Assembly: GCA_900168235.1 (NCBI GenBank)
Contig: FUZG01000003.1
Location: 310,001 to 374,000 of the forward strand
Source: Lachnospiraceae bacterium
Lineage (GTDB): Bacteria; Bacillota; Clostridia; Lachnospirales; Lachnospiraceae
Direction of reading: 5' to 3'
Length of the DNA: 64,000 bases
Below, one piece after another: positions 39,206 to 52,574 of the stretch. Positions within the stretch are counted from its first letter, which is position 1; the number at the start of each line of letters is the position of its first letter. The position numbers and the translations under genes were made by a program. The notes beneath the pieces were generated by a model. It ran no database searches. It saw only the letters and a program-made list of their open reading frames with translations, and was not told the DNA's origin.

Positions 39206-40252
39206 TCATTCCTCTGACTGTGTTTTGTATTGATGTAGGGGTGGTGTATCCTGATCGATCGGAAGAATCTCCAGACCTCGGTCCTTAAGTCCCTTTAGAA
39301 TTGCCGGAAGAGCATCCACAGTGCTTTTTTTTGCTCCTGTATCATGCAGGAGAACAACTGAAGACCTCCACCTGTCTACGCCCCTCAGCGTATTCCGGAC
39401 TATTTCTCCCGACGAGAGCGCCTTTCCGGAAGAATCCCCGCAATAGACATTCCAGTCATAGTATTCCACGTCCTGACTGTAAAGTACTGAAATATAACGA
39501 TCCATCGGCAGGCTCGCTACAGTATTACCGCTGCCCCCCGGGAATCGGTAGAATTTCGGCGCTATACCTGTTTCATTATAAATTAGATTACGTATTTTAT
39601 CAAGGTCATACTCGAAGCCGTCAAGGGTTTTGTACACATCCTTGTACACATGCGAATATGAATGCATGCCTATCGTGTGACCCTCATCAACTATGCGTTT
39701 ATAGGTATGTCTGAGCCTCTCATCCCTGTCTCCGGTACCGCACACAAAGAAAGTGGCATGTACCCCGTTCTCACTAAGTATGTCCAAAATTTTGTCGGTG
39801 TATATGGATGGACCGTCATCAAAAGTGAGGTACACCTTTTCCGCACCGCCGCTTCCTGCCGGAGCCTGACCCGAAACCGCCGAACGCACATCCTGATCCG
39901 AGTCATCCTGTATCCCGCTCTGAAGCATTTCAGAATTTTCACCGTTCGTCTCAGCAGGAATTTCTGTATACTCTTCAGAAATGTCCTCATGTGCTTCGTC
40001 AGTATTCTCTATCTCATCCGCACTGACAGCATATGTATAGTCTTTGCTGTCAGCCAGCGTCCTTACTCCGTTGCTTTCCTGCACAATGGATTCCGTAGCT
40101 GCCTCTGCAACTGTCTCGGTGATATTCCCCTTTCCATGAAAAAAATGGAGCGCGATCACGGCAGACACGAGAAAAACCGCAGCGAGGCACAAAATACCTG
40201 CTGCGGTGAGCATTTTCAATTTTAGTTTTCTCAAGCGCTTAGAACGGACCAT
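39206..40252 (-). CDS. Membrane-anchored polysaccharide deacetylase (NodB domain)
   Basis: A 348-residue protein with a basic N-terminus and one signal-anchor helix (~14-35), a Ser/Glu-rich extracellular linker and a C-terminal NodB domain. Catalytic motifs visible are TFDDGPS, the metal pair HSYSH and RFPGGSGN. It likely removes N-acetyl groups from peptidoglycan or another extracellular glycan. It starts 3 nt after the upstream lipoprotein gene. Confidence 0.92.
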   Translation of the reverse strand: MVRSKRLRKLKLKMLTAAGILCLAAVFLVSAVIALHFFHGKGNITETVAEAATESIVQESNGVRTLADSKDYTYAVSADEIENTDEAHEDISEEYTEIPAETNGENSEMLQSGIQDDSDQDVRSAVSGQAPAGSGGAEKVYLTFDDGPSIYTDKILDILSENGVHATFFVCGTGDRDERLRHTYKRIVDEGHTIGMHSYSHVYKDVYKTLDGFEYDLDKIRNLIYNETGIAPKFYRFPGGSGNTVASLPMDRYISVLYSQDVEYYDWNVYCGDSSGKALSSGEIVRNTLRGVDRWRSSVVLLHDTGAKKSTVDALPAILKGLKDRGLEILPIDQDTPPLHQYKTQSEE

Positions 40253-43063: not shown

Positions 43064-43291
43064 GGGTTCAAGCCGCACTTCCACACCTTCACTTGACCAC
43101 TACCCGCGGAAGATGGGGTAAGACGGATTCAGAAAAAGATCCTGTGGATCTTTTTCCCGGCGAACCGACCGATGAAGCGCTACCGCGCGCTTCGGAGATC
43201 TGAACCCGTCGCCGCATGGCGACTGGGTTCAAGTCGCACTTCCACGCGAACGAAAAAGAGCAGATGCTCACGCATCTGCCCTTTTTGTTCG
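43064..43291 (-). repeat. tRNA-Leu-linked hairpin array, element 1
   Basis: Downstream of tRNA-Leu copy 1 the minus strand carries four hairpins in a row. They are a GCAGATGC/GCATCTGC terminator, a GAACCC-GTCGCC/GGCGAC-GGGTTC hairpin, a CCGA-AGCGC/GCGCGCTTCGG hairpin and a GAAAAAGATCC/GGATCTTTTTC hairpin. A degenerate copy of the tRNA 3' end in inverted orientation (GGGTTCAAGCCGCACTTCC ... CGCGGAAGATGGGG) closes the element. No gene. Confidence 0.7.
43252..43286 (-). terminator. Terminator of tRNA-Leu copy 1
   Basis: AAAAAGGGCAGATGC and GCATCTGCTCTTTTT flank a 4-nt loop on the minus strand; U-run immediately 3' of the tRNA. Confidence 0.85.
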
Positions 43292-43375
43292 TGCGGAAGA
43301 TGGGACTTGAACCCACACAACGTTGCCGTCACAAGATCCTTAGTCTTGCTCGTCTGCCAATTCCGACACTTCCGC
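43292..43375 (-). tRNA. tRNA-Leu (AAG), copy 1
   Basis: 84-nt class II tRNA with acceptor GCGGAAG/CTTCCGC, A73, a long variable arm and anticodon stem CAAGA/TCTTG. The loop CTAAGGA gives anticodon AAG (codon CUU). No encoded CCA. A34 would be expected to be deaminated to inosine. Confidence 0.95.
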
Positions 43376-43418
43376 GTTTCTATTGTTTGCCCGACGCATC
43401 AGCGCCGCAACGAAATGT

Positions 43419-43448
43419 ATCTTACTACAGATTGTATTTATATGTCAA
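43419..43448 (-). promoter_or_regulatory. Promoter of tRNA-Leu copy 1
   Basis: TTGACA, 18-nt spacer, TAAGAT. The leader contains a GCGGCGC/GCGTCGGGC hairpin before the tRNA. The same block is repeated before copies 2 and 3. Confidence 0.85.
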
Positions 43449-43525
43449 CAATCTTTTTTAACTTTTTTGAACTTTTTTCTTCAGCCATCAACCCAATATC
43501 CTATGTGCTTCTATGCACTTCAGAA

Positions 43526-43599: not shown

Positions 43600-43657
43600 G
43601 GGTCAAGTCACTCTTCCACGCAAAATAAAAAGCAGATGCTCTCGCATCTGCTTTTTA
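43600..43657 (-). terminator. Inverted tRNA end and terminator of tRNA-Leu copy 2
   Basis: Minus strand AAAAAGCAGATGC/GCATCTGCTTTTT terminator directly after the tRNA. Beyond it GGGTCAAGTCACTCTTCCACG (plus strand) is an inverted, degenerate copy of the tRNA 3' end. The longer hairpin array is lacking here. Confidence 0.8.
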
Positions 43658-43662
43658 TTTCG

Positions 43663-43746
43663 TGCGGAAGATGGGACTTGAACCCACACAACGTTGCCGT
43701 CACAAGATCCTTAGTCTTGCTCGTCTGCCAATTCCGACACTTCCGC
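43663..43746 (-). tRNA. tRNA-Leu (AAG), copy 2
   Basis: Same 84-nt sequence and AAG anticodon as copy 1, 287 nt upstream of it in transcription order. Confidence 0.95.
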
Positions 43747-43790
43747 GTTTCTTATTGTTTGCCCGACGCATCAGCGCCGCAACGAAATGT

Positions 43791-43820
43791 ATCTTACTAC
43801 AGATTGTATTTATATGTCAA
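43791..43820 (-). promoter_or_regulatory. Promoter of tRNA-Leu copy 2
   Basis: TTGACA, 18-nt spacer, TAAGAT, duplicated from copy 1 together with its leader hairpin. Confidence 0.85.
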
Positions 43821-43897
43821 CAATCTTTTTCAAAATTTTTTGAAGAATTTTTCAACCCCTAAAAAAATTGCATCTGTCTTATGAAAATCCCCCAAAA

Positions 43898-43926
43898 TTG
43901 ACAAAGTTTTTTTCTCTATATATAAT
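43898..43926 (+). promoter_or_regulatory. Perfect-consensus sigma-A promoter of flippase-deacetylase operon
   Basis: TTGACA, 17-nt spacer, TATAAT on the plus strand, with no deviation from consensus. The leader to the flippase ATG is about 120 nt. Confidence 0.88.
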
Positions 43927-44055: not shown

Positions 44056-45456
44056 ATGGGAAAAGTTAAAGACGAAACATCGGTTAAAGCACTGAAAGCA
44101 GGTGTTTGGTACACATTCGCCTCTTTCTTAAAAAAGGGTGTAGCATTTGCAACCACACCTATTTTTGCACGACTGATGACAAAAGGGGATTACGGTTCAT
44201 ACGGTAACTTTACAGTATGGCTCTCCATCTGCGCAGTAGTTTGTACTCTCAATCTGAAGAGTTCTGTTTTTAAGGCAAGATATGACTACGAGGATGATTT
44301 TGACGGATATCTGTCATCCATAACATTTCTTGGAACTCTCTCAACAGCGTGTTTTTATGCAGTAGTAGTTATTTTTCAGGACTTTTTTGTCAATCTCCTG
44401 AAAATAGATATGATATATCTTCATGTCATGTTCATAGAGCTTATGTTTGCACCGGCTCTTGATATACTTCAGGCAAAACACAGAATAATGCAGGAGTACA
44501 AAACACAGGTCGCACTATCGATTTTTGAATCGCTTGCATGCACTTTCTGCTCTGTGGGAATGGTTTTCATCTGCAAGGACAAACTTTTTGCAAGGATCAT
44601 CGGCGGAGAAGTTCCTGATATCATTATTTATATAGTAGTTTTTTCTATTCTTCTCTTCCGTGGAAGAAAAATCATATCGACCGAATACTGGAAATATGCT
44701 GCAGCCTATTCAATACCAGTCATTCCTCACCTGCTTTCTAACATTATCTTAGGTTCTTCTGATAAGATAATGATAAGAAATATGATAGGTGCCGAAGCTA
44801 ATGGTAATTATACCCTGGCATATCAGTGCGGCATGATCGTTTCCACTCTGATGACATCGTTTAATCAGGCAATGACCCCCTGGCTCTATCAGAAGTTACA
44901 TGCAGAGCAAGAGGATGCGATAAAAAAAGTAAATCGGGTTTATATCATCTCTTTTGTTATACTGGTCATGGCTTTTATTCTTATGGCTCCCGAGATCGTC
45001 TGGGTTCTGGGCGATAAGGGTTATAAAGGAGTCGAATATATTATCCCGCCTATAATGCTCGGATATGGATTTAAGTTTGCATATACCGGCTACGTTAATG
45101 TAGAACAATACCATAAAAAAACAGGTATCGTTTCAGTCGGAACGCTTATTGCAGCTACATTCAACATTGTCACAAATTTGATCTTTCTTCCTATATTCGG
45201 TTATGCAGCCGCAGCATACACTACGCTTGCAGGCTTTATAATGCTCCTGCTCCTTCATTATGGCATCAGCAGAAAATACGGATTTACAAAAATATATGAC
45301 AACAGGTTTACATTCCTCGTAATGGGCGCGATGATGATCATCGGGCTTTCACTGCAGTTCCTTTATCCGTTCATGCTCCTGCGCTGGGCACTGGCATTCG
45401 CCTTCGGAATGATTGCCCTTTTTGAGTTCTATAAACTAAAGAAAAAATACTTTTGA
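44056..45456 (+). CDS. Polysaccharide flippase (Wzx/MOP superfamily)
   Basis: A 466-residue polytopic membrane protein with 12-14 hydrophobic helices. Its starting motif KKGVAFATTPIFARLMTKGDYG is typical of Wzx/RfbX O-antigen and capsule flippases, which turn undecaprenyl-linked oligosaccharides to the outer face. AGGAAG lies 6 nt before the ATG. It is co-transcribed with the deacetylase 12 nt downstream from a perfect promoter. Unlike its neighbours it is on the plus strand and lies between two tRNA-Leu gene copies, suggesting an acquired module. The transported glycan is unknown. Confidence 0.92.
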   Translation: MGKVKDETSVKALKAGVWYTFASFLKKGVAFATTPIFARLMTKGDYGSYGNFTVWLSICAVVCTLNLKSSVFKARYDYEDDFDGYLSSITFLGTLSTACFYAVVVIFQDFFVNLLKIDMIYLHVMFIELMFAPALDILQAKHRIMQEYKTQVALSIFESLACTFCSVGMVFICKDKLFARIIGGEVPDIIIYIVVFSILLFRGRKIISTEYWKYAAAYSIPVIPHLLSNIILGSSDKIMIRNMIGAEANGNYTLAYQCGMIVSTLMTSFNQAMTPWLYQKLHAEQEDAIKKVNRVYIISFVILVMAFILMAPEIVWVLGDKGYKGVEYIIPPIMLGYGFKFAYTGYVNVEQYHKKTGIVSVGTLIAATFNIVTNLIFLPIFGYAAAAYTTLAGFIMLLLLHYGISRKYGFTKIYDNRFTFLVMGAMMIIGLSLQFLYPFMLLRWALAFAFGMIALFEFYKLKKKYF

Positions 45457-45468
45457 AAGGTGAAATAA

Positions 45469-46425
45469 ATGCGTTCTGTACATATAATAATGTATCACTA
45501 TGTTAGAGATCTGCTTCATTCGAGATATCCTGAGATAAAGGGACTTGCACTCGATGAATTTGTAAAGCAGGTTGAGTTCCTGAAAAACAACTTTAACATT
45601 ATAAGCATGGATGAACTTGTTTCAGCCGGCGTCAACGGCGATAAATTACCCGAAAGAGCCGCTGTCCTCACATTTGATGACGGATATTCAGATCACTTCA
45701 TGAATGTTTTCCCCGTCTTAAAAAACTTTGGAGTATCAGGTTCATTTTACATCCCGGGAGAAGCTGTAAAAGATCACAAGATTCTTTCAGTAAACAAAAT
45801 CCATTTCATACTTGCTTCAGCCGAGATCAACTCATTACAATCAGAAGTTATTGCACTTATGGACAAATATAGAGGACGCGAATTTGATTTTCCCGACACC
45901 GATACATTAATTGAGATGTACCAGAAACCGGGACGCTATGACATTGCAGAAACTGTTTTTGTAAAAAAGATGCTGCAGACCGTTCTTCCCGAAAGGCTCA
46001 GAGATATTATCTGTGATGAACTTTTTGCAAAGTATGTGGGTGTAAAAGAGGATGTTTTCAGCCGCGAACTGTATCTAAACGAGCATCAGATCAAATGCAT
46101 GAAAGATGCCGGTATGCATATAGGCGCGCATGGTTATGCTCATTACTGGCTCGGTGATCTTAATAAAGAAAAGATGATCGAAGATGTGAACAAGGGTCTC
46201 GAGGTTATCGATCCTTTCATTGACAGAAATAATTGGGTAATGAATTATCCTTATGGATCATATAACGGCGAAACAGTTGAATATATAAAATCCATCGGAT
46301 GCAAGATGGCGATCGCAACAAAGGTCGGTATATGCGACCTCGACAAGGATGATTTCTACGCACTTCCAAGACTCAATACAAACGATTATCCACCTAAAAG
46401 TGAAACATATAAGACCTTCGCTTAA
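45469..46425 (+). CDS. Cytosolic polysaccharide deacetylase (NodB family)
   Basis: A 318-residue protein with TFDDGYSDHF (catalytic Asp and metal Asp), the HGYAH metal motif in GAHGYAHYW, and a YPYGSYN block in place of RxPYG. There is no signal peptide or membrane anchor, so it should act in the cytoplasm, perhaps on a lipid-linked or nucleotide-linked sugar. GAAAGGTG precedes the ATG. Its stop codon lies in the loop of a bidirectional terminator and overlaps the stop of the opposing acyltransferase gene by four bases. Confidence 0.9.
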   Translation: MRSVHIIMYHYVRDLLHSRYPEIKGLALDEFVKQVEFLKNNFNIISMDELVSAGVNGDKLPERAAVLTFDDGYSDHFMNVFPVLKNFGVSGSFYIPGEAVKDHKILSVNKIHFILASAEINSLQSEVIALMDKYRGREFDFPDTDTLIEMYQKPGRYDIAETVFVKKMLQTVLPERLRDIICDELFAKYVGVKEDVFSRELYLNEHQIKCMKDAGMHIGAHGYAHYWLGDLNKEKMIEDVNKGLEVIDPFIDRNNWVMNYPYGSYNGETVEYIKSIGCKMAIATKVGICDLDKDDFYALPRLNTNDYPPKSETYKTFA

Positions 46426-46440
46426 AGCGAAGGTCTTTCT
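46411..46440. terminator. Bidirectional terminator containing both stop codons
   Basis: AGACCTTCGC (46412-46421) and GCGAAGGTCT (46427-46436) form a 10-bp stem. The 5-nt loop TTAAA contains bases of TAA stops in both directions. U-rich on the plus-strand side (TTCTTTAT), weaker on the minus side. Confidence 0.85.
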
Positions 46441-47483
46441 TTATCTCTATCAAAATTAGGGCGGTCCTGGTCACCATCTCCTTTGCAGATAGTGACATCG
46501 GATCCAATATCGCAAAATCCGGCCATGTCCTTGTTTTCCTGTACAAAAGGCTCAAAATAGTTCGGGATCACGTTTTCATCGTCTCCCTCATATCTATTCT
46601 TAAATCCTGCGGATTTCAGGTATCCTGCCTCAAATCCATAAACATAGAAATCAACATACTCACAGCCTGTCTTTCTCAGCATCTCATCAAAAAACTGCCC
46701 TGCGCCAGCCATTGCAGACTGATCTCCGATGTAATCGATCACACGAAGAACACGGGAACCGTTTGCTTCAACCTGCCTTGTAACCATTAATGCAGATGCC
46801 TTTTCGCCATCCTTGCTGAGAAGATAAATACTATAATCGTACCAAGGATGATCGAAATATCTGTGCTTGATAAACCAATTATCCTTATACGGAATAGAAT
46901 CGATCGCCTCTACATCAAATTTAGACTTTAAATCGTCTATATCAGAAACCTTTTCAACTTTTGTTGAACAGCTCATCGAAGAAAAAGAACCATCAAAGCG
47001 ATCTTTAATAACAGCTATCTTGAAATCTTTTACTTCAGGATTGAGGCGATAAAAATGGTCTAATCTGACGATCTGCTTCTTAAACCGGCTGCCAACGATC
47101 ATTGTAGTATTTATATTCTGTCCAACTCCAAGATTATATCTGCATCCGATCAGGGATTCCGTTCTCTTTCTTATCTCTGTTCCTAAAAGAGGGAAATTGC
47201 CATCACCTGTATTCGCTTTCCAGATACTTCCCCAATAATCCCGTTTTTCAGGGTTTTTCGAGCTGAAAAGGAGTCCTCTGATACCCTGGATCGTATTTGT
47301 GGCACGGTCCACAGCGATCACGAAATTTACCTTTCCATCGATCAGAAACTCATATTCAAAATACTTTCTGTTAGTCGACATCAGATGACCGGCAGACCAA
47401 TATTTATCAATGAACTGCATAATGGAATCAATATCATCCTCAGTCGCCAGGCGAACGCAGTATTTATCGTCAAACTTTCCCAT
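46422..47483 (-). CDS. GNAT-like acyltransferase (putative)
   Basis: A 353-residue protein whose N-terminus (YCVRLATEDDIDSIMQFIDKYWSAG) is a GNAT start strand and helix. Later GxGxN-type (GVGQNINTT) and IDYIGDQSAMAGAGQ segments look like a second acetyltransferase-like half. It has no signal peptide. It starts one base over the stop of the carrier-protein gene (TAATG), so it is translationally coupled to it. A natural role is transfer of the acyl or aminoacyl group from the carrier to an amine (inference). I recognise no closer named family. Confidence 0.65.
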   Translation of the reverse strand: MGKFDDKYCVRLATEDDIDSIMQFIDKYWSAGHLMSTNRKYFEYEFLIDGKVNFVIAVDRATNTIQGIRGLLFSSKNPEKRDYWGSIWKANTGDGNFPLLGTEIRKRTESLIGCRYNLGVGQNINTTMIVGSRFKKQIVRLDHFYRLNPEVKDFKIAVIKDRFDGSFSSMSCSTKVEKVSDIDDLKSKFDVEAIDSIPYKDNWFIKHRYFDHPWYDYSIYLLSKDGEKASALMVTRQVEANGSRVLRVIDYIGDQSAMAGAGQFFDEMLRKTGCEYVDFYVYGFEAGYLKSAGFKNRYEGDDENVIPNYFEPFVQENKDMAGFCDIGSDVTICKGDGDQDRPNFDRDKERPSL

Positions 47484-47722
47484 TACATTGTCTTTCTTTC
47501 AAGAATTTCCTGAACAAGCTTTGTGATACAGTCTAAATTATTGAAAGTCTCCGGAAGTACATCGTCGGCTTCAAATTCTATATCATATTTTTCTGAAATA
47601 GCTCCAATGATCGACAGTACTGCATAAGAATCGAGTAATCCGTCATCGATCAATGCATCTTCATTTTCAAAATCAATCGTAGGACAGGTTTCTTCAAGTA
47701 ACTTTAATATCTCATCACGCAT
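47483..47722 (-). CDS. Acyl/aminoacyl carrier protein (DltC-like)
   Basis: A 79-residue acidic four-helix carrier with DDGLLDSYAVLSI. S32 after LD is the phosphopantetheine attachment site. The LLDS-type motif resembles DltC (D-alanyl carrier) as much as fatty-acid ACP. It lies between an adenylating enzyme and an acyltransferase, so it probably carries the activated residue between them. Confidence 0.9.
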   Translation of the reverse strand: MRDEILKLLEETCPTIDFENEDALIDDGLLDSYAVLSIIGAISEKYDIEFEADDVLPETFNNLDCITKLVQEILERKTM

Positions 47723-47753
47723 TTTTTTGCCTCTTCATCAACAGTTAATCTGC

Positions 47754-49289
47754 TTAATTATTTTCCTTTTCAAGAGTCTTCCGGTCAAGCTTTCCATTCG
47801 GAAGCTGCGGCAGTGTCTCTACTTTATTTACGACCGTCGGTATCATGTACGGCGGCAGCTTTGAGTCAAGTGCACGCATAAGATCCTTTTCTGACAATGA
47901 TCCTATATAATACAGCACAAGTGCATCCTTATTTTTATTATGGACACAGCAGCATGCATCTATATCATCCAGCGAATCTACAGCGTTCTCTATCTCGCCA
48001 AGCTCGATACGTTTTCCCATATGCTTGACCTGATAGTCCATTCTTCCCGAGAATACGAGATTTCCATCCTCATCCCAGAAAGCAAGGTCTCCCGTATGGT
48101 ACATTTTTTCGCCATATCCAAGCTCTGACGGAAGATCGGTAAATGCCATTTCCGTCTTTTCAGGATTATTATAATATCCTGCAGCAAGGCAAGTTCCGTA
48201 AACGCAAATCTCACCTTTTCTCGATCTATCCGACTGCGGAATGATCTCTTCACCATCAACAAGTATCATTCCGGTGTTTCTATAGGGCTTTCCAATAGGA
48301 ATCAGCCCGTCATAATTTCTCTTATTATCTACTTTATAATAACTGCATGATCCGGTTATCTCAGACGGTCCATAGAACTGCCAGTAATCAATATCCGGAT
48401 AAAATCCCTTCCAGTATTCAAAAACCGGAAGCTGCATGGATTCACCTGAAAAACAGAGAGTTCTTATCGAATCAGGTCTTAACTTTCCAAGTGATTTAAA
48501 CTGGGCAATTATACGGTAAACCGTGGGAACCCACATGCAGTAAGTTATCTTCTTTTCATCTATATACTGAAGAAGTTTTAACGGAAAAGAAAAGCACTTT
48601 GCCGGTATGATGCAAAGCTCCGCCCCTGACGCCAGCGTCATGTATAAATCCTTAAGGGACATGTCTGAGTAAAAAGGTGCCTGATTACCGCATACATCAT
48701 CTCCACGCATGCCAACTTCATCCATGAAGCTGCTGATATAATCCATTACGCTTCTATGACGGACAGCAACGCCCTTTGGCACACCGGTAGATCCGGAGGT
48801 AAAAATAATGTACATAAGACTGCTGTCCATAATAGAATTGACAGCAGCATGAATCTCAGGTGATTCTGCCTTTCCAACAGCTTTTCCGATCAAATCCTCG
48901 TAAACAAGATATTCACCGCTGTACCCTGATTTCAACAGCTTTTTTTCATCTTTTCTATTTGTAAGGATCCTGTATTCCTGAAGTGTTTCAAGGATACTGT
49001 TCAGTCTCTCAACAGGAGTGCTGACATCGACCGGAACATAAAAAGAACCGCTGTAAAGCGTTCCATAAATACTTACGACATGGCTTATAGATCTGTCCAT
49101 AAAAATGACAACAGGTACTTTTTTCCCTGACGGATCAGATGTGCTTATAAGTGAATAAGCCAGCTCTCGGGATCTGTTCCTGAGCTCAAGCCAGGTTATG
49201 CTTTCGCTCTCTTCCGAAACAGCGGTTTTATCAGGAATATTTAAATAATTTTCCTCTAAATAATCAATAACAGATACTTTTCTACTCAT
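47754..49289 (-). CDS. Adenylation enzyme (DltA/NRPS A-domain-like)
   Basis: A 511-residue stand-alone AMP-forming ligase with all core motifs: IIFTSGSTGVPKGVAVRH (A3), QAPFYSDMSLKDLYMTLASG (A4 region), QFYGPSEITGSC (A5), YHTGDL and GRMDYQVKHMGKRIELGEIE (A7-A8) and the C-terminal LPQLPNGKLDRKTL with catalytic Lys (A10). It should activate a small amino or carboxylic acid and load it on the adjacent carrier protein. No DltB or DltD is present, so it is not an ordinary dlt operon. A TTG five codons upstream is in frame; neither start has a strong ribosome site. Confidence 0.9.
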   Translation of the reverse strand: MSRKVSVIDYLEENYLNIPDKTAVSEESESITWLELRNRSRELAYSLISTSDPSGKKVPVVIFMDRSISHVVSIYGTLYSGSFYVPVDVSTPVERLNSILETLQEYRILTNRKDEKKLLKSGYSGEYLVYEDLIGKAVGKAESPEIHAAVNSIMDSSLMYIIFTSGSTGVPKGVAVRHRSVMDYISSFMDEVGMRGDDVCGNQAPFYSDMSLKDLYMTLASGAELCIIPAKCFSFPLKLLQYIDEKKITYCMWVPTVYRIIAQFKSLGKLRPDSIRTLCFSGESMQLPVFEYWKGFYPDIDYWQFYGPSEITGSCSYYKVDNKRNYDGLIPIGKPYRNTGMILVDGEEIIPQSDRSRKGEICVYGTCLAAGYYNNPEKTEMAFTDLPSELGYGEKMYHTGDLAFWDEDGNLVFSGRMDYQVKHMGKRIELGEIENAVDSLDDIDACCCVHNKNKDALVLYYIGSLSEKDLMRALDSKLPPYMIPTVVNKVETLPQLPNGKLDRKTLEKENN

Positions 49290-49307
49290 GTCAAAATTCT
49301 TCAAAAA

Positions 49308-49349: not shown

Positions 49350-49379
49350 ATATTATCAATTTACAATCTTCATTGTCAA
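49350..49379 (-). promoter_or_regulatory. Promoter of the adenylation-carrier-acyltransferase operon
   Basis: TTGACA, 18-nt spacer, TAATAT on the minus strand. The -35 lies 4 bp from the next repeat element. Confidence 0.75.
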
Positions 49380-49382
49380 GTT

Positions 49383-49592
49383 GGGTCCAAGTCGCATTTC
49401 CACACCTTCACTTAACCACTACCCGCGGAAGATGGGGGCGCTGGACGTCCAGTGGACGTCCGCTTAGCGCCGATCTCAGGGGACTTTATGTCCCCTGAGA
49501 TCGGAACCCGTCGCCGCAGGCGACTGGGGGCAAGTCGCACTTCCTCGCGAACGAAAAAGAGCAGATGCTTTCGCATCTGCTCTTTTTGTTCG
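49383..49592 (-). repeat. tRNA-Leu-linked hairpin array, element 3
   Basis: Same order as element 1: terminator, GAACCC-GTCGCC/GGCGAC hairpin, then GATCTCAGGGGAC-TTTAT-GTCCCCTGAGATC, then a GGCGCT/AGCGCC hairpin around GGACGTCC, and the inverted tRNA-end copy (CATTTCC ... GCGGAAGATG). Stem sequences differ from the other elements but pairing is kept. Confidence 0.7.
49553..49588 (-). terminator. Terminator of tRNA-Leu copy 3
   Basis: AAAAAGAGCAGATGC and GCATCTGCTCTTTTT flank a 4-nt loop; immediately 3' of the tRNA. Confidence 0.85.
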
Positions 49593-49676
49593 TGCGGAAG
49601 ATGGGACTTGAACCCACACAACGTTGCCGTCACAAGATCCTTAGTCTTGCTCGTCTGCCAATTCCGACACTTCCGC
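49593..49676 (-). tRNA. tRNA-Leu (AAG), copy 3
   Basis: Same 84-nt gene with anticodon AAG as copies 1 and 2. Confidence 0.95.
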
Positions 49677-49720
49677 GTTTCTATTGTTTCGCCCGACGCT
49701 AGTGCGCCGCAACGAAATGT

Positions 49721-49750
49721 ATGATACTACAGATTGTATTTATATGTCAA
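49721..49750 (-). promoter_or_regulatory. Promoter of tRNA-Leu copy 3
   Basis: TTGACA, 18-nt spacer, TATCAT. The leader hairpin loop differs from copies 1-2. Confidence 0.8.
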
Positions 49751-49813
49751 CAATCTTTTTTAACTTTTTTGAACTTTTTATTCCACACCATCAAACCAGG
49801 CAATAAAGTACTC

Positions 49814-50849: not shown

Positions 50850-51025
50850 AGAAAAAGGTCGTCTGTGAACACTCACAAACAACCTTTTCAATCGTGTCGA
50901 ACCGACCGAGGAGGACTTTATGTCCTCCGAGATCTGAACCCGTTTGCCGTAGGCAAACGGGTTCAAGTCGCACTTCCACGCGAACGAAAAAGAGCAGATG
51001 CTCTCGCATCTGCTCTTTTTGTTCG
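50850..51025 (-). repeat. tRNA-Leu-linked hairpin array, element 4
   Basis: Hairpins in order after the tRNA: terminator, GAACCCGTTTGCC-GTA-GGCAAACGGGTTC (perfect), GAGGAGGAC-TTTAT-GTCCTCC, and an AAAAGGT...ACCTTTT hairpin of ~17 bp. It shares CGAACCGACCGA with element 1. The inverted tRNA-end copy is GGGTTCAAGTCGCACTTCCA. Confidence 0.7.
50987..51020 (-). terminator. Terminator of tRNA-Leu copy 4
   Basis: AAAAAGAGCAGATGC and GCATCTGCTCTTTTT around a 4-nt loop on the minus strand. Confidence 0.85.
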
Positions 51026-51109
51026 TGCGGAAGATGGGACTTGAACCCACACAACGTTGCCGTCACAAGATCCTTAGTCTTGCTCGTCTGCCAATTCCGA
51101 CACTTCCGC
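51026..51109 (-). tRNA. tRNA-Leu (AAG), copy 4
   Basis: Same 84-nt gene and AAG anticodon as the other copies, but with a different upstream leader and promoter, so this may be the founder copy. Confidence 0.95.
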
Positions 51110-51153
51110 GTTTATTTATATTATCGAAACTCTTGTGTTTCGCAACGAATAAT

Positions 51154-51182
51154 ATATTATATCAGTCCCGTCATTCTGTCAA
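51154..51182 (-). promoter_or_regulatory. Promoter of tRNA-Leu copy 4
   Basis: TTGACA, 17-nt spacer, TAATAT. The leader has a CGAAAC/GTTTCG hairpin in place of the GC-rich one of copies 1-3. Confidence 0.85.
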
Positions 51183-51200
51183 CTATTAAATCAAAAAAAT

Positions 51201-52574
51201 TCAAACTTTTTCTAAAACAATATTTCTTTTCCTCACAGCGTAATGATAATAAATACAAAAAGCAATAGAGCACAGCACCCAAGAAGCCGGATAACACGCC
51301 ATTAAAACATAAGTGCTATGTACAAAAGGCAAAATTCCCAACACCCAGAAAACACGCAGGACACAGACACCTATGCCGGTTATGATCATCGGCACTACAG
51401 AATCTCCCATTCCTCTCAAAGCTCCGGCATATATTTCCACAAACAGATACGTCACATATGTAGGAGTAAGGAACTTTATCATATCCGTTCCGATCGCGAT
51501 CACATCTGCATCCGACGTGAAAATAGTCAATGCCGTTCCTCCGAATACATATATCAAAAGGCTTAAGACGACCGTTGAGAGCGCTGTCATGCCGATACAG
51601 GCATTAACTCCTCTCCTCACCCTGTCATTCTTACCTGCACCGTAATTCTGCCCTACAAACGTCATTATAGACGTTCCAAACGAATTTAATATCATCCAAA
51701 AAATCAGATCCACTTTTTCATACGCCGTCCATGCAGCAACCGTATTCGTTCCAAAGCTATTAATAGAGGTCTGGACCAGCACATTTGAACTCGTATACAT
51801 TAAAGACTGCATCCCGTTTGGAATACCTATGCGGATTATCTTTTTAAGAGTATCACCATGTATCCTGAGCTCAGACAGGCGCAAACGGCACGTATCATCC
51901 ATACGGCTAAGCGTTCCTAAGACCATTCCCGCACTGATCACCTGACACAGGACAGTAGCTAAAGCTGCTCCTGCGATACCCATTCCAAAAACGATAACAA
52001 ACAGTATATCAAGTACGATATTTGCACCACAGGATATGATAAGGAAAAGCAGCGGTCTCTTCGTGTCTCCTGTAGCCCTTAGGATCGACGCTCCCATGTT
52101 ATACACGAAGTTAGGTATCATACCAAGGAAGAATATACTCATATAGATTTTAGAGCTTATAAACACGTCTGACGGCGTTCCCATCATGCCAAGCATAAAA
52201 GGCGTCAAAAGACTTCCTGCAATAGTAACTCCAAATCCCGCAAGAATAGAAAAAAGCACTGCCGTATGAACAGCCTTCTTCACCTCGTCCATTCTTCTCG
52301 CACCATAATACTGGGATACTATGACCGCTGCTCCATTGGAAACACCTATGAAAAAATTCAGAAAAACGGCAACGATGATACCCGTAGATCCACCAACAGC
52401 AGACAGTGCTACTTTTCCAAGCGTACGGCCCACTATGACTGCATCCACCGTATTATACAGCTGTTGAAAAAACGAACCAAACAACAGCGGAAAGAAAAAC
52501 GTCAGAAGCTGATTTGATATCTTTCCTTCTGTAAGGGACAAATTTTTGTCTTTTTTAGCCACAACCGCAGACAT
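51201..52574 (-). CDS. MATE-family efflux transporter
   Basis: A 457-residue membrane protein with 12 predicted helices in two related halves (e.g. FQQLYNTVDAVIVGRTLG and a second SINSFGTNTVAAWTAYEK). This matches the NorM/DinF-like MATE branch common in Clostridia, which exports cationic drugs or metabolites with sodium or protons. GGAGG lies 7 nt before the ATG at 52574; six more codons are open upstream. Specificity is unknown. Confidence 0.94.
   Translation of the reverse strand: MSAVVAKKDKNLSLTEGKISNQLLTFFFPLLFGSFFQQLYNTVDAVIVGRTLGKVALSAVGGSTGIIVAVFLNFFIGVSNGAAVIVSQYYGARRMDEVKKAVHTAVLFSILAGFGVTIAGSLLTPFMLGMMGTPSDVFISSKIYMSIFFLGMIPNFVYNMGASILRATGDTKRPLLFLIISCGANIVLDILFVIVFGMGIAGAALATVLCQVISAGMVLGTLSRMDDTCRLRLSELRIHGDTLKKIIRIGIPNGMQSLMYTSSNVLVQTSINSFGTNTVAAWTAYEKVDLIFWMILNSFGTSIMTFVGQNYGAGKNDRVRRGVNACIGMTALSTVVLSLLIYVFGGTALTIFTSDADVIAIGTDMIKFLTPTYVTYLFVEIYAGALRGMGDSVVPMIITGIGVCVLRVFWVLGILPFVHSTYVLMACYPASWVLCSIAFCIYYHYAVRKRNIVLEKV

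Follow-up and report, generated by a model that had tools for sequence, protein, structure and literature searches.

A candidate five-gene cassette for exchanging the N-acyl group of a nonulosonic acid in a Lachnospiraceae bacterium

Organization of the locus

The window, by which is meant the whole 64,000-nucleotide stretch of DNA that was analysed, comes from a Lachnospiraceae bacterium with relatives in the rumen. Open reading frame positions place five genes in two convergent operons. A Wzx-type polysaccharide flippase (466 aa; 44056..45456) and a NodB-homology (CE4) deacetylase (318 aa; 45469..46425) are specified by the plus strand and face a minus-strand operon encoding a stand-alone NRPS-type adenylation (A) domain (47754..49289), a 79 aa stand-alone carrier protein (47483..47722) and a 353 aa tandem-GNAT-like acyltransferase (46422..47483). 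The five genes and their convergent layout agree with the preliminary description, as does the terminator common to both operons: one bidirectional terminator-like hairpin (46411..46437; 12-pair stem and 3-nt loop, on both strands) spans the two operon ends and sits inside the last codons of both. The carrier stop codon overlaps the GNAT start. For the A domain, an ATG at 49289 is preceded by an in-frame TTG at 49304; the ATG is the likely start because the homologs in two relatives, L036 and L037, begin there. The flippase operon is preceded by a candidate sigma-70-like promoter, TTGACA-17-TATAAT (43898..43926, plus strand; 12 of 12 consensus positions), and the A-domain operon by another, TTGACA-16-GATAAT (49352..49379, minus strand; 11 of 12). 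Since the promoter scan returned 29 sites against 16.8 in shuffled sequences, both are to be read as consensus matches only.

The flippase and the deacetylase

The flippase matches PF01943 (82.7 bits, cut-off 28.2; E-value=3.8e-23). A paralog with 33% identity is encoded elsewhere in the genome, on contig C5, where its neighbours are NeuB and a PseF-PseG-like fusion. The deacetylase matches PF01522 (80.1 bits, cut-off 23.1) and contains the motifs TFDDG and HGxxH. Among 16 aligned sequences F69, D70, D71, H221, H225 and R301 are invariant, and the NodB domain together with the Asp-His-His metal site (D71, H221 and H225) places the protein in CE4. Its conserved N-terminus, MRSVxIIMYHYVR, displays no signal sequence by eye; on this inspection of the N-terminus the enzyme looks cytosolic, and the earlier claim of a NodB deacetylase without signal peptide is retained.

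The adenylation domain and its carrier

The A domain scored 196.3 bits against PF00501 and 317.4 bits against TIGR01733, exactly the cut-off (317.4), which assigns it to the NRPS adenylation domains. An NRPS assembly line was rejected, as no condensation domain was found by Pfam among the five proteins. The pocket residues obtained by alignment, with column positions set by landmarks, are DMKMCSFGSK, in which the alpha-amino-binding Asp is retained. This residue (Asp214, counting from the TTG start) falls in one column with the Asp that we take to bind the alpha-amino group in each of the two LgrA A domains. The Asp is present in 10 of 11 close A domains (own included; profile score >240) and in none of 13 more distant ligases, in an alignment that omits a 37-bit A-domain fragment from locus L023. 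Because it is kept, an amino acid is supported as the probable substrate; the pocket residues did not resolve which one. A formyltransferase gene adjoins the trio of A domain, carrier and GNAT in locus L107; in L037 one lies beside a further pair of A domain and carrier. Both placements are in keeping with an aminoacyl thioester. The carrier possesses the phosphopantetheine attachment motif DSY, with a PF00550 score (17.4 bits) under the cut-off of 20.8; its best NCBIfam match is to a DltC model (26.3 bits vs 68).

The tandem-GNAT-like protein

The 353 aa protein gave no NCBIfam match and no Pfam match over cut-off, the single hit being at chance level (E-value=0.035). Its AlphaFold model (pLDDT 85.8) was compared using Foldseek, and among the 50 matches listed were tandem GNATs and N-myristoyltransferases, including MAB_4324, Eis2 and NMT; those to tandem GNATs had E-values down to 1.6e-9, with modest TM-scores of 0.33–0.57. 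A GNAT fold is thus supported by the predicted structure. Alignment revealed a C-terminal motif, NYFEPF...GDGDQDRPN. Searches with the GNAT sequence found no match among solved structures or phage records and two divergent matches among plasmid records, and a contig scan of genomes with the GNAT alone gave two relatives. The family occurs in several Bacillota families, with a divergent form in an alphaproteobacterium.

Conservation of the cassette

The surroundings of the GNAT gene were examined in 37 loci, 21 collected first and 16 fetched later as a test. Profiles for the first set were built partly from those same loci, while the later 16 were not used in building; carrier profiles were applied to the later set only, one member of which (L104) shares a genus with L027 of the first. 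Two weak matches, L049 (30 bits) and L111 (33 bits), are retained in the counts and may be other GNATs. Acyl-activating genes lie near the GNAT gene in 29/37 loci, the acyl source varying between A domain, FkbH, LuxE/LuxC and KAS III. A deacetylase is nearby in 23 of the 37 (16/21 in the first set and 7/16 in the later one), and is co-directional with the GNAT in 20 of these, the other three being of the five-gene type.

The five-gene block occurs in three genomes: that of the window, L036 and L037. Both relatives possess the same convergent five-gene layout, the GNAT being 80% identical in L036, where the flippase is cut by the contig end, and 67% identical in L037, the nearest relative with full context. 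Trios never accompanied by a flippase and deacetylase, the finding that the preliminary description named as refuting its proposal, are therefore not what was seen. The stretch read around the trio of L107 lacks both a deacetylase and NeuB, and in L098, L100, L105 and L106 the GNAT accompanies LuxE/LuxC-type genes with no deacetylase in the stretch read. When G079, the only listed genome of the same genus, was compared for an empty site, the left flanking gene of the island was not found there.

The window flippase was recognised, by similarity to this protein, in 3/37 loci, using a single-sequence comparison in the first 21 and a profile in the later 16, so that distant flippases would escape. 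By this count it is a loose partner outside the conserved core, a point on which the preliminary description needs changing.

Association with nonulosonic acid genes

NeuB/C/A genes were found within about 8 kb of the GNAT gene in 15/37 loci, including one alphaproteobacterium, a 22-bit NeuA match in L110 being excluded from these counts. NeuB is nearby in 10 of the first 21 loci and 3 of the later 16, and in the later test set nonulosonate genes of any of the three kinds are near the GNAT in only 4/16. The window contains no recognisable NeuB/C/A gene. In L037, a NeuB-NeuC-NeuA row starts adjacent to the flippase and divergent from it; in the window genome a NeuB-NeuC-NeuA-SDR row lies on contig C5, its NeuC sharing 77% identity with the L037 protein. 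A strong NeuB (threshold 1e-40) is present in every one of the 12 family genomes, own included, in which the GNAT is clear, vs 125 of 299 overall as tallied by hand (hypergeometric P=2e-5); this count started from 14 GNAT hits, of which G110 (E-value=6e-4) and G151 (E-value=9e-4) were dropped.

Two loci, L047 and L048, are by inspection beside fliD/fliS-like genes. The former has LegB over cut-off; in the latter an aminotransferase resembles LegC (387.1 bits, cut-off 420) and a PseD/Maf-type match is weak (94.3 bits, cut-off 670). In the window genome no LegB or PseB exceeded its cut-off, the best hits to these models scoring 162.3 vs 475 and 313.5 vs 407.75, respectively; a dehydratase related to LegB/PseB could serve there.

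Proposed function

The reading that we favour, with a probability of about 0.58, is that the cassette replaces the N-acetyl group on a nonulosonic acid with an amino acid supplied by the carrier and that the product is exported. It is built on gene identities, motif conservation and the linkage in relatives to deacetylase, acyl-activating and NeuB/C/A genes, all of which were observed, and on a GNAT fold taken from a predicted structure. The editing of this sialic-acid-like sugar would take place in the cytosol. The NodB-type deacetylase would strip the N-acetyl group from the sugar or its nucleotide-activated form, the A domain would activate an amino acid at the expense of ATP and load it as a thioester onto the small carrier, and the tandem GNAT would pass the amino acid from the carrier to the amine thus exposed. 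Once complete, the sugar would enter a lipid-linked glycan for export by the Wzx-type flippase. The nonulosonic acid as acceptor, the sequence of steps, the amino acid as acyl group and the role of this flippase in exporting the product are inferred. Counting against this reading are the lack of a NeuB/C/A gene in the window, the lower frequencies of nonulosonate genes and deacetylase in the later test set, the loci where the GNAT has no deacetylase nearby, the rarity of this flippase and the carrier's score under the Pfam cut-off. Deacetylation followed by GNAT-dependent transfer of an activated acyl group to a sugar, already sketched in the preliminary description, is supported because the deacetylase linkage is conserved, and the pocket Asp supports an amino acid as the acyl group; the generic lipid-linked sugar named there as acceptor gives way to a nonulosonic acid, which the neighbours suggest.

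More tentatively, at somewhat under even odds, the tandem-GNAT proteins with the C-terminal motif GDGDQDRPN may form an undescribed family that swaps acyl groups on nonulosonic acids after a dedicated cytosolic deacetylase. The acyl group would be set by the local carrier module (an amino acid with an A domain, a glyceryl-type group with FkbH, other chains with LuxE/LuxC or KAS III), and the window would hold the form that adds amino acids and brings an exporter of its own. Unusual N-acyl groups are numerous on the sialic-acid-like sugars of flagella and capsules. If the proposal is true, an enzyme family with exchangeable acyl-loading neighbours would make such groups predictable from genome sequence, and would offer stand-alone enzymes for the in vitro making of N-acyl nonulosonic acids.

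The same chemistry might instead, along the lines of the preliminary description, act on an ordinary amino sugar made by the deacetylase, lipid- or nucleotide-linked and of the GlcN, bacillosamine or viosamine type, the nonulosonate linkage reflecting only shared glycan islands. GlcNAc residues are the classical substrates of NodB-family enzymes, the window locus lacks a nearby NeuB, and 22/37 loci, some on short contigs, are without NeuB/C/A in the stretch read. We nevertheless consider this unlikely, given the proximity of these genes in the remaining 15 loci, one of them alphaproteobacterial, and their adjacency in L037, the closest relative with full context. A lower chance still is given to a trio whose product is a small molecule, soluble or lipid-type, such as a short peptide or aminoacyl-lipid, with flippase and deacetylase as mere neighbours: the NRPS-type A domain, the convergence of the two operons and the trio of L107 would suit it, but the block stays together in three genomes, the deacetylase recurs beside the GNAT, mostly co-directionally, and the five proteins are devoid of a condensation domain. 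D-alanylation of a wall polymer with the GNAT replacing DltB/DltD is very improbable, for although the A domain has a likeness to DltA and the carrier to DltC, a Dlt-type system was rejected on scores below the equivalog cut-offs (DltA, TIGR01734, 245.0 vs 559.85 bits; DltC, TIGR01688, 17.2 vs 52.35 bits), and the trio accompanies a cytosolic-looking deacetylase. Among the five proteins there is no match to DltB or DltD.

Comparison with known systems

An AMP-forming ligase, a polysaccharide deacetylase and a FemAB-like protein co-occur in XrtA/PEP-CTERM exopolysaccharide loci. A search of the open-access literature on this type of system found nothing, and membership was rejected on the TIGR03098 score (165.7 bits, cut-off 592.35).

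In the viosamine island of Pseudomonas syringae pv. tabaci 6605 a carrier and acyl-building enzymes serve the N-acylation of a flagellin amino sugar, and mutants indicate that the acyl group matters (PMC3927599). There a KAS III and a reductase make the acyl group, the acetyltransferase is VioB and the amine comes from the aminotransferase VioA; unlike the window cassette, the seven genes listed include no deacetylase or A domain (PMC3927599). The polar flagellin islands of Aeromonas (Groups I–III) combine pseudaminic acid genes with a carrier, 3-oxoacyl-ACP reductase, AMP-dependent synthetase, LuxE, LuxC (Group II), and deacetylases (Group I) or GNATs (Group III), for which the authors suggest a liposugar component; L048 resembles them by gene list, but a cassette of A domain, carrier, tandem GNAT and deacetylase is not described in the available part (PMC7874193). 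Enterobacteriaceae flagellin glycosylation islands with Acp, LuxE, LuxC, CaiC and FabG genes were read as specifying a lipid-type modification, and the available text mentions no deacetylase, in contrast to the window cassette (PMC4875605).

Nonulosonic acids bearing amino acids do exist, the acylating enzymes not being described in the available parts: the flagellin of Clostridium botulinum carries the legionaminic acid derivative Leg5Ac7NMeGlu (PMC2674064), and Campylobacter jejuni has an N-acetylglutamine-substituted pseudaminic acid (PMC3068675). In the peptidylamido-glycan of Clostridioides difficile type B flagellin, acylation of an amino-sugar amine is tentatively attributed to a gene that lies beside a putative D-alanine ligase gene; the acceptor there is fucosamine, and the text mentions no adenylation domain, carrier or deacetylase (PMC5207245). 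A non-acetyl N-acyl nonulosonate, 7-(3-hydroxybutyramido) nonulosonic acid, is named in a reference title for the K-antigen of Sinorhizobium fredii HH103, differing from the window case in species and acyl group (PMC3788101). In a congener, S. americanum (L045), NeuA-NeuB-NeuC are grouped with a deacetylase and a divergent GNAT. The HexSDF system of C. difficile likewise joins deacetylase and flippase genes and yields an amino-sugar lipid, but its flippase is MprF-like and the operon, as far as the available part describes it, is without A domain, carrier or GNAT (PMC10128005).

The preliminary description knew of no named system with this set of genes, and none with exactly these five was found in the open-access literature, although carrier-dependent acylation of flagellin amino sugars has been published. 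The single steps resemble known ones, and put together they look like a form of carrier-dependent amino-sugar acylation that has not yet been described.

Gene content of the cassette

Open reading frames bore out the positions and strands given for the five genes in the preliminary description. A flippase (44056–45456) and a NodB-type deacetylase (45469–46425), both on the + strand and with family matches, converge on three genes of the − strand specifying a 353-aa GNAT-like protein (46422–47483), a 79-aa carrier (47483–47722) and an adenylation (A) domain (47754–49289). The last scores exactly at the TIGR01733 cut-off. The Pfam match of the carrier is weak, at 17.4 bits against a cut-off of 20.8, but the protein possesses a DSY attachment motif. 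The deacetylase, described as having no signal peptide, showed none on visual inspection. The catalytic positions D70, D71, H221, H225 and R301 of this enzyme are invariant across 16 aligned sequences. Some 4 kb away from the cassette is a second NodB-type deacetylase (39206–40252), with an N-terminal stretch that looks hydrophobic by eye; it is only distantly related to the cassette enzyme (E 9e-4). The proposed common terminator was found as a hairpin (46411–46437) within the final codons of both operons, terminator-like on both strands. Near-perfect sigma-70 matches (12/12 and 11/12) lie 5' of the operons; since the scan yielded 29 sites, against 16.8 (sd 4.3) in shuffled sequence, these putative promoters are only suggestive.

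The 353-aa protein had no match over cut-off in Pfam or NCBIfam, nor a relative among solved structures by sequence. A model built from a 13-sequence alignment (mean pLDDT 85.8) shows a succession of helices and strands that resembles two GNAT-like halves. A Foldseek search of the PDB returned tandem GNATs (MAB_4324, Eis2) and N-myristoyltransferases (best E 1.6e-9), with modest TM-scores of 0.33–0.57 among the best 50 matches listed. The family carries a C-terminal motif, NYFEPF, followed by GDGDQDRPN.

Linkage to nonulosonate genes

A contig scan (GTDB) revealed two close relatives, L036 (80%) and L037 (67%), titled rumen or uncultured Lachnospiraceae. Both preserve the convergent arrangement of all five genes, the flippase of L036 being cut on its 4.2-kb contig. 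In L037 the start of NeuB adjoins the flippase, followed by NeuC (TIGR03568, 395.9 bits, cut-off 235.9) and NeuA; NeuB and NeuA are below the cut-offs of their models. The same NeuB-NeuC-NeuA-SDR row occurs on contig C5 of the window genome, its NeuC 77% identical. At another C5 locus NeuB is accompanied by a PseF-PseG-like fusion, whose two domains both score below cut-off, and by a flippase sharing 33% identity with that of the window; on contig C27, NeuB-NeuC-NeuA are joined by a WbuX-type amidotransferase that exceeds its cut-off. The genome thus has three separate nonulosonic-acid loci on C5 and C27 (L034, 6330–10801; L053, 5890–9823; L055, 6921–10966). Also on C5, about 13–17 kb from the NeuB-NeuC-NeuA row, an FkbH-type gene, a methyltransferase and a carrier protein (L054, 2365–5848) form a possible second acyl-carrier module, at which no tandem-GNAT gene was found. 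Every one of the 12 family genomes in which the GNAT is clear contains a strong NeuB too, vs. 125/299 overall (P 2e-5; two weak GNAT matches left out).

Neighbourhoods of the GNAT gene were compared at 37 loci: a first set of 21, window included, and a second of 16 obtained later as a test. In the first, a deacetylase was present in 16/21 (missing in L021, L027, L028, L044 and L049, of which L028 and L049 are contigs only 5 and 3 kb long), NeuB in 10/21 (L049 has NeuC only) and an acyl-activating gene (A domain or ligase, FkbH, LuxE/LuxC, KAS III) in 16/21. The corresponding figures in the second were 7/16, 3/16 (L104 has NeuA and NeuC without NeuB) and 13/16, the nonulosonate link being clearly weaker there. 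Overall, 23/37 loci have a deacetylase, 15/37 any of NeuB/C/A (a 22-bit NeuA match in L110 left out) and 29/37 an acyl-activating gene. Of the 23 deacetylase loci, 20 have GNAT and deacetylase co-directional and three are of the five-gene type. Neither deacetylase nor NeuB lies within the stretch read in four loci with LuxE/LuxC-type genes (L098, L100, L105, L106) or in L107, which has GNAT, carrier, NRPS-type A domain and formyltransferase. The most constant partner of the GNAT is the acyl-loading side, and the acceptor may vary between loci. A split transketolase pair and an SDR lie near the tandem-GNAT gene in L021, L023, L024, L098 and L106, with LuxE/LuxC in four of the five, as a candidate source of an acyl group; the transketolase call rests on Pfam in L023 and on similarity or resemblance in the others.

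Predicted substrate and mechanism

By alignment, with column positions set by landmarks, the pocket of the window A domain reads DMKMCSFGSK. In NRPS A domains the Asp binds the alpha-amino group of the substrate; here it aligns with LgrA, and it is kept in 10/11 A domains scoring >240 with a window-type profile (L026 has Ser) vs. 0/13 scoring <150. A formyltransferase gene adjoins the GNAT-carrier-A domain trio in L107 (7992–12265) and a second NRPS-type A domain/carrier pair in L037 (1023–3639). The kept Asp and these neighbours fit an amino acid as the predicted substrate, and the formyltransferases suggest an N-formyl-aminoacyl thioester.

From the genes, predicted fold, motifs and linkage we infer a cytosolic exchange of an N-acetyl group for a carrier-bound amino acid: the deacetylase would expose the amine of a nonulosonic acid, or of a nucleotide form of it, the A domain would charge the carrier with an amino acid, the GNAT would form the amide and the flippase would export the lipid-linked glycan. 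A deacetylase would be required only where the acyl group replaced is the one inherited from GlcNAc. In the window genome neither LegB nor PseB exceeds its cut-off (best PseB-model match 313.5, cut-off 407.75); this would fit, rather than prove, a sugar that bears just one N-acetyl group.

Distribution and possible acquisition

GNAT relatives (E <= 0.001) occur in 14/299 genomes of the family, its own included. Phylum, class and order searches, which overlap in part and each include the own genome, gave matches in 5/398, 4/391 and 16/392 genomes. Plasmid records gave two (Subdoligranulum variabile and Sinorhizobium americanum) and the phage records searched none. Four tRNA-Leu(AAG) genes, all on one strand, each lie inside a 207-nt repeat (43282–43488, 43653–43859, 49583–49789 and 51016–51222; 63–100% identical, ungapped), and the cassette sits between copies two and three. 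The gaps between copies hold the cassette and a gene that is MerR-like by inspection, as in an insertion site in repeated use. The G+C content of 1-kb windows is 38–42% at 44–49 kb vs. 43–48% at 36–44 kb and 41–47% at 49–56 kb, a small difference, and the only same-genus genome listed gave no GNAT match. When an empty insertion site was sought in that genome, the left flanking gene was not found. Position among the tRNA repeats, slightly lower G+C and the missing GNAT match together suggest that the cassette was acquired.

Comparison with known systems

In the open-access literature searched, which excludes most subscription papers and was available partly as excerpts, a cassette of deacetylase, tandem GNAT and A domain/carrier is unnamed; the accessible text of a 2026 survey of Clostridium flagellin islands (PMC13317340) mentions acetyltransferases and methylases, and neither "acyl carrier" nor "deacetylase". 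L047 and L048, loci of GNAT relatives, adjoin fliD-/fliS-looking genes (by inspection). LegB passes its cut-off in L047. In L048 a LegC-like aminotransferase falls slightly short of its threshold, and a PseD/Maf-type match is weak (94.3 bits against a cut-off of 670). With its carrier, SDR, AMP ligase, LuxE and LuxC, L048 comes near the gene list published, in the part available, for Aeromonas Group II islands (PMC7874193). According to the available excerpts, fatty-acid-type genes lie beside pse genes in Aeromonas flagellin islands (PMC7874193) and are reported from those of Enterobacteriaceae (PMC4875605), and carrier-dependent acylation has been described for viosamine, a flagellin amino sugar (PMC3927599). 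As to products, such excerpts report a 3-hydroxybutyramido nonulosonate in S. fredii (title of a reference in PMC3788101), a peptidylamido amino sugar in C. difficile (PMC5207245) and nonulosonates bearing an amino acid in C. botulinum (PMC2674064) and C. jejuni (PMC3068675).
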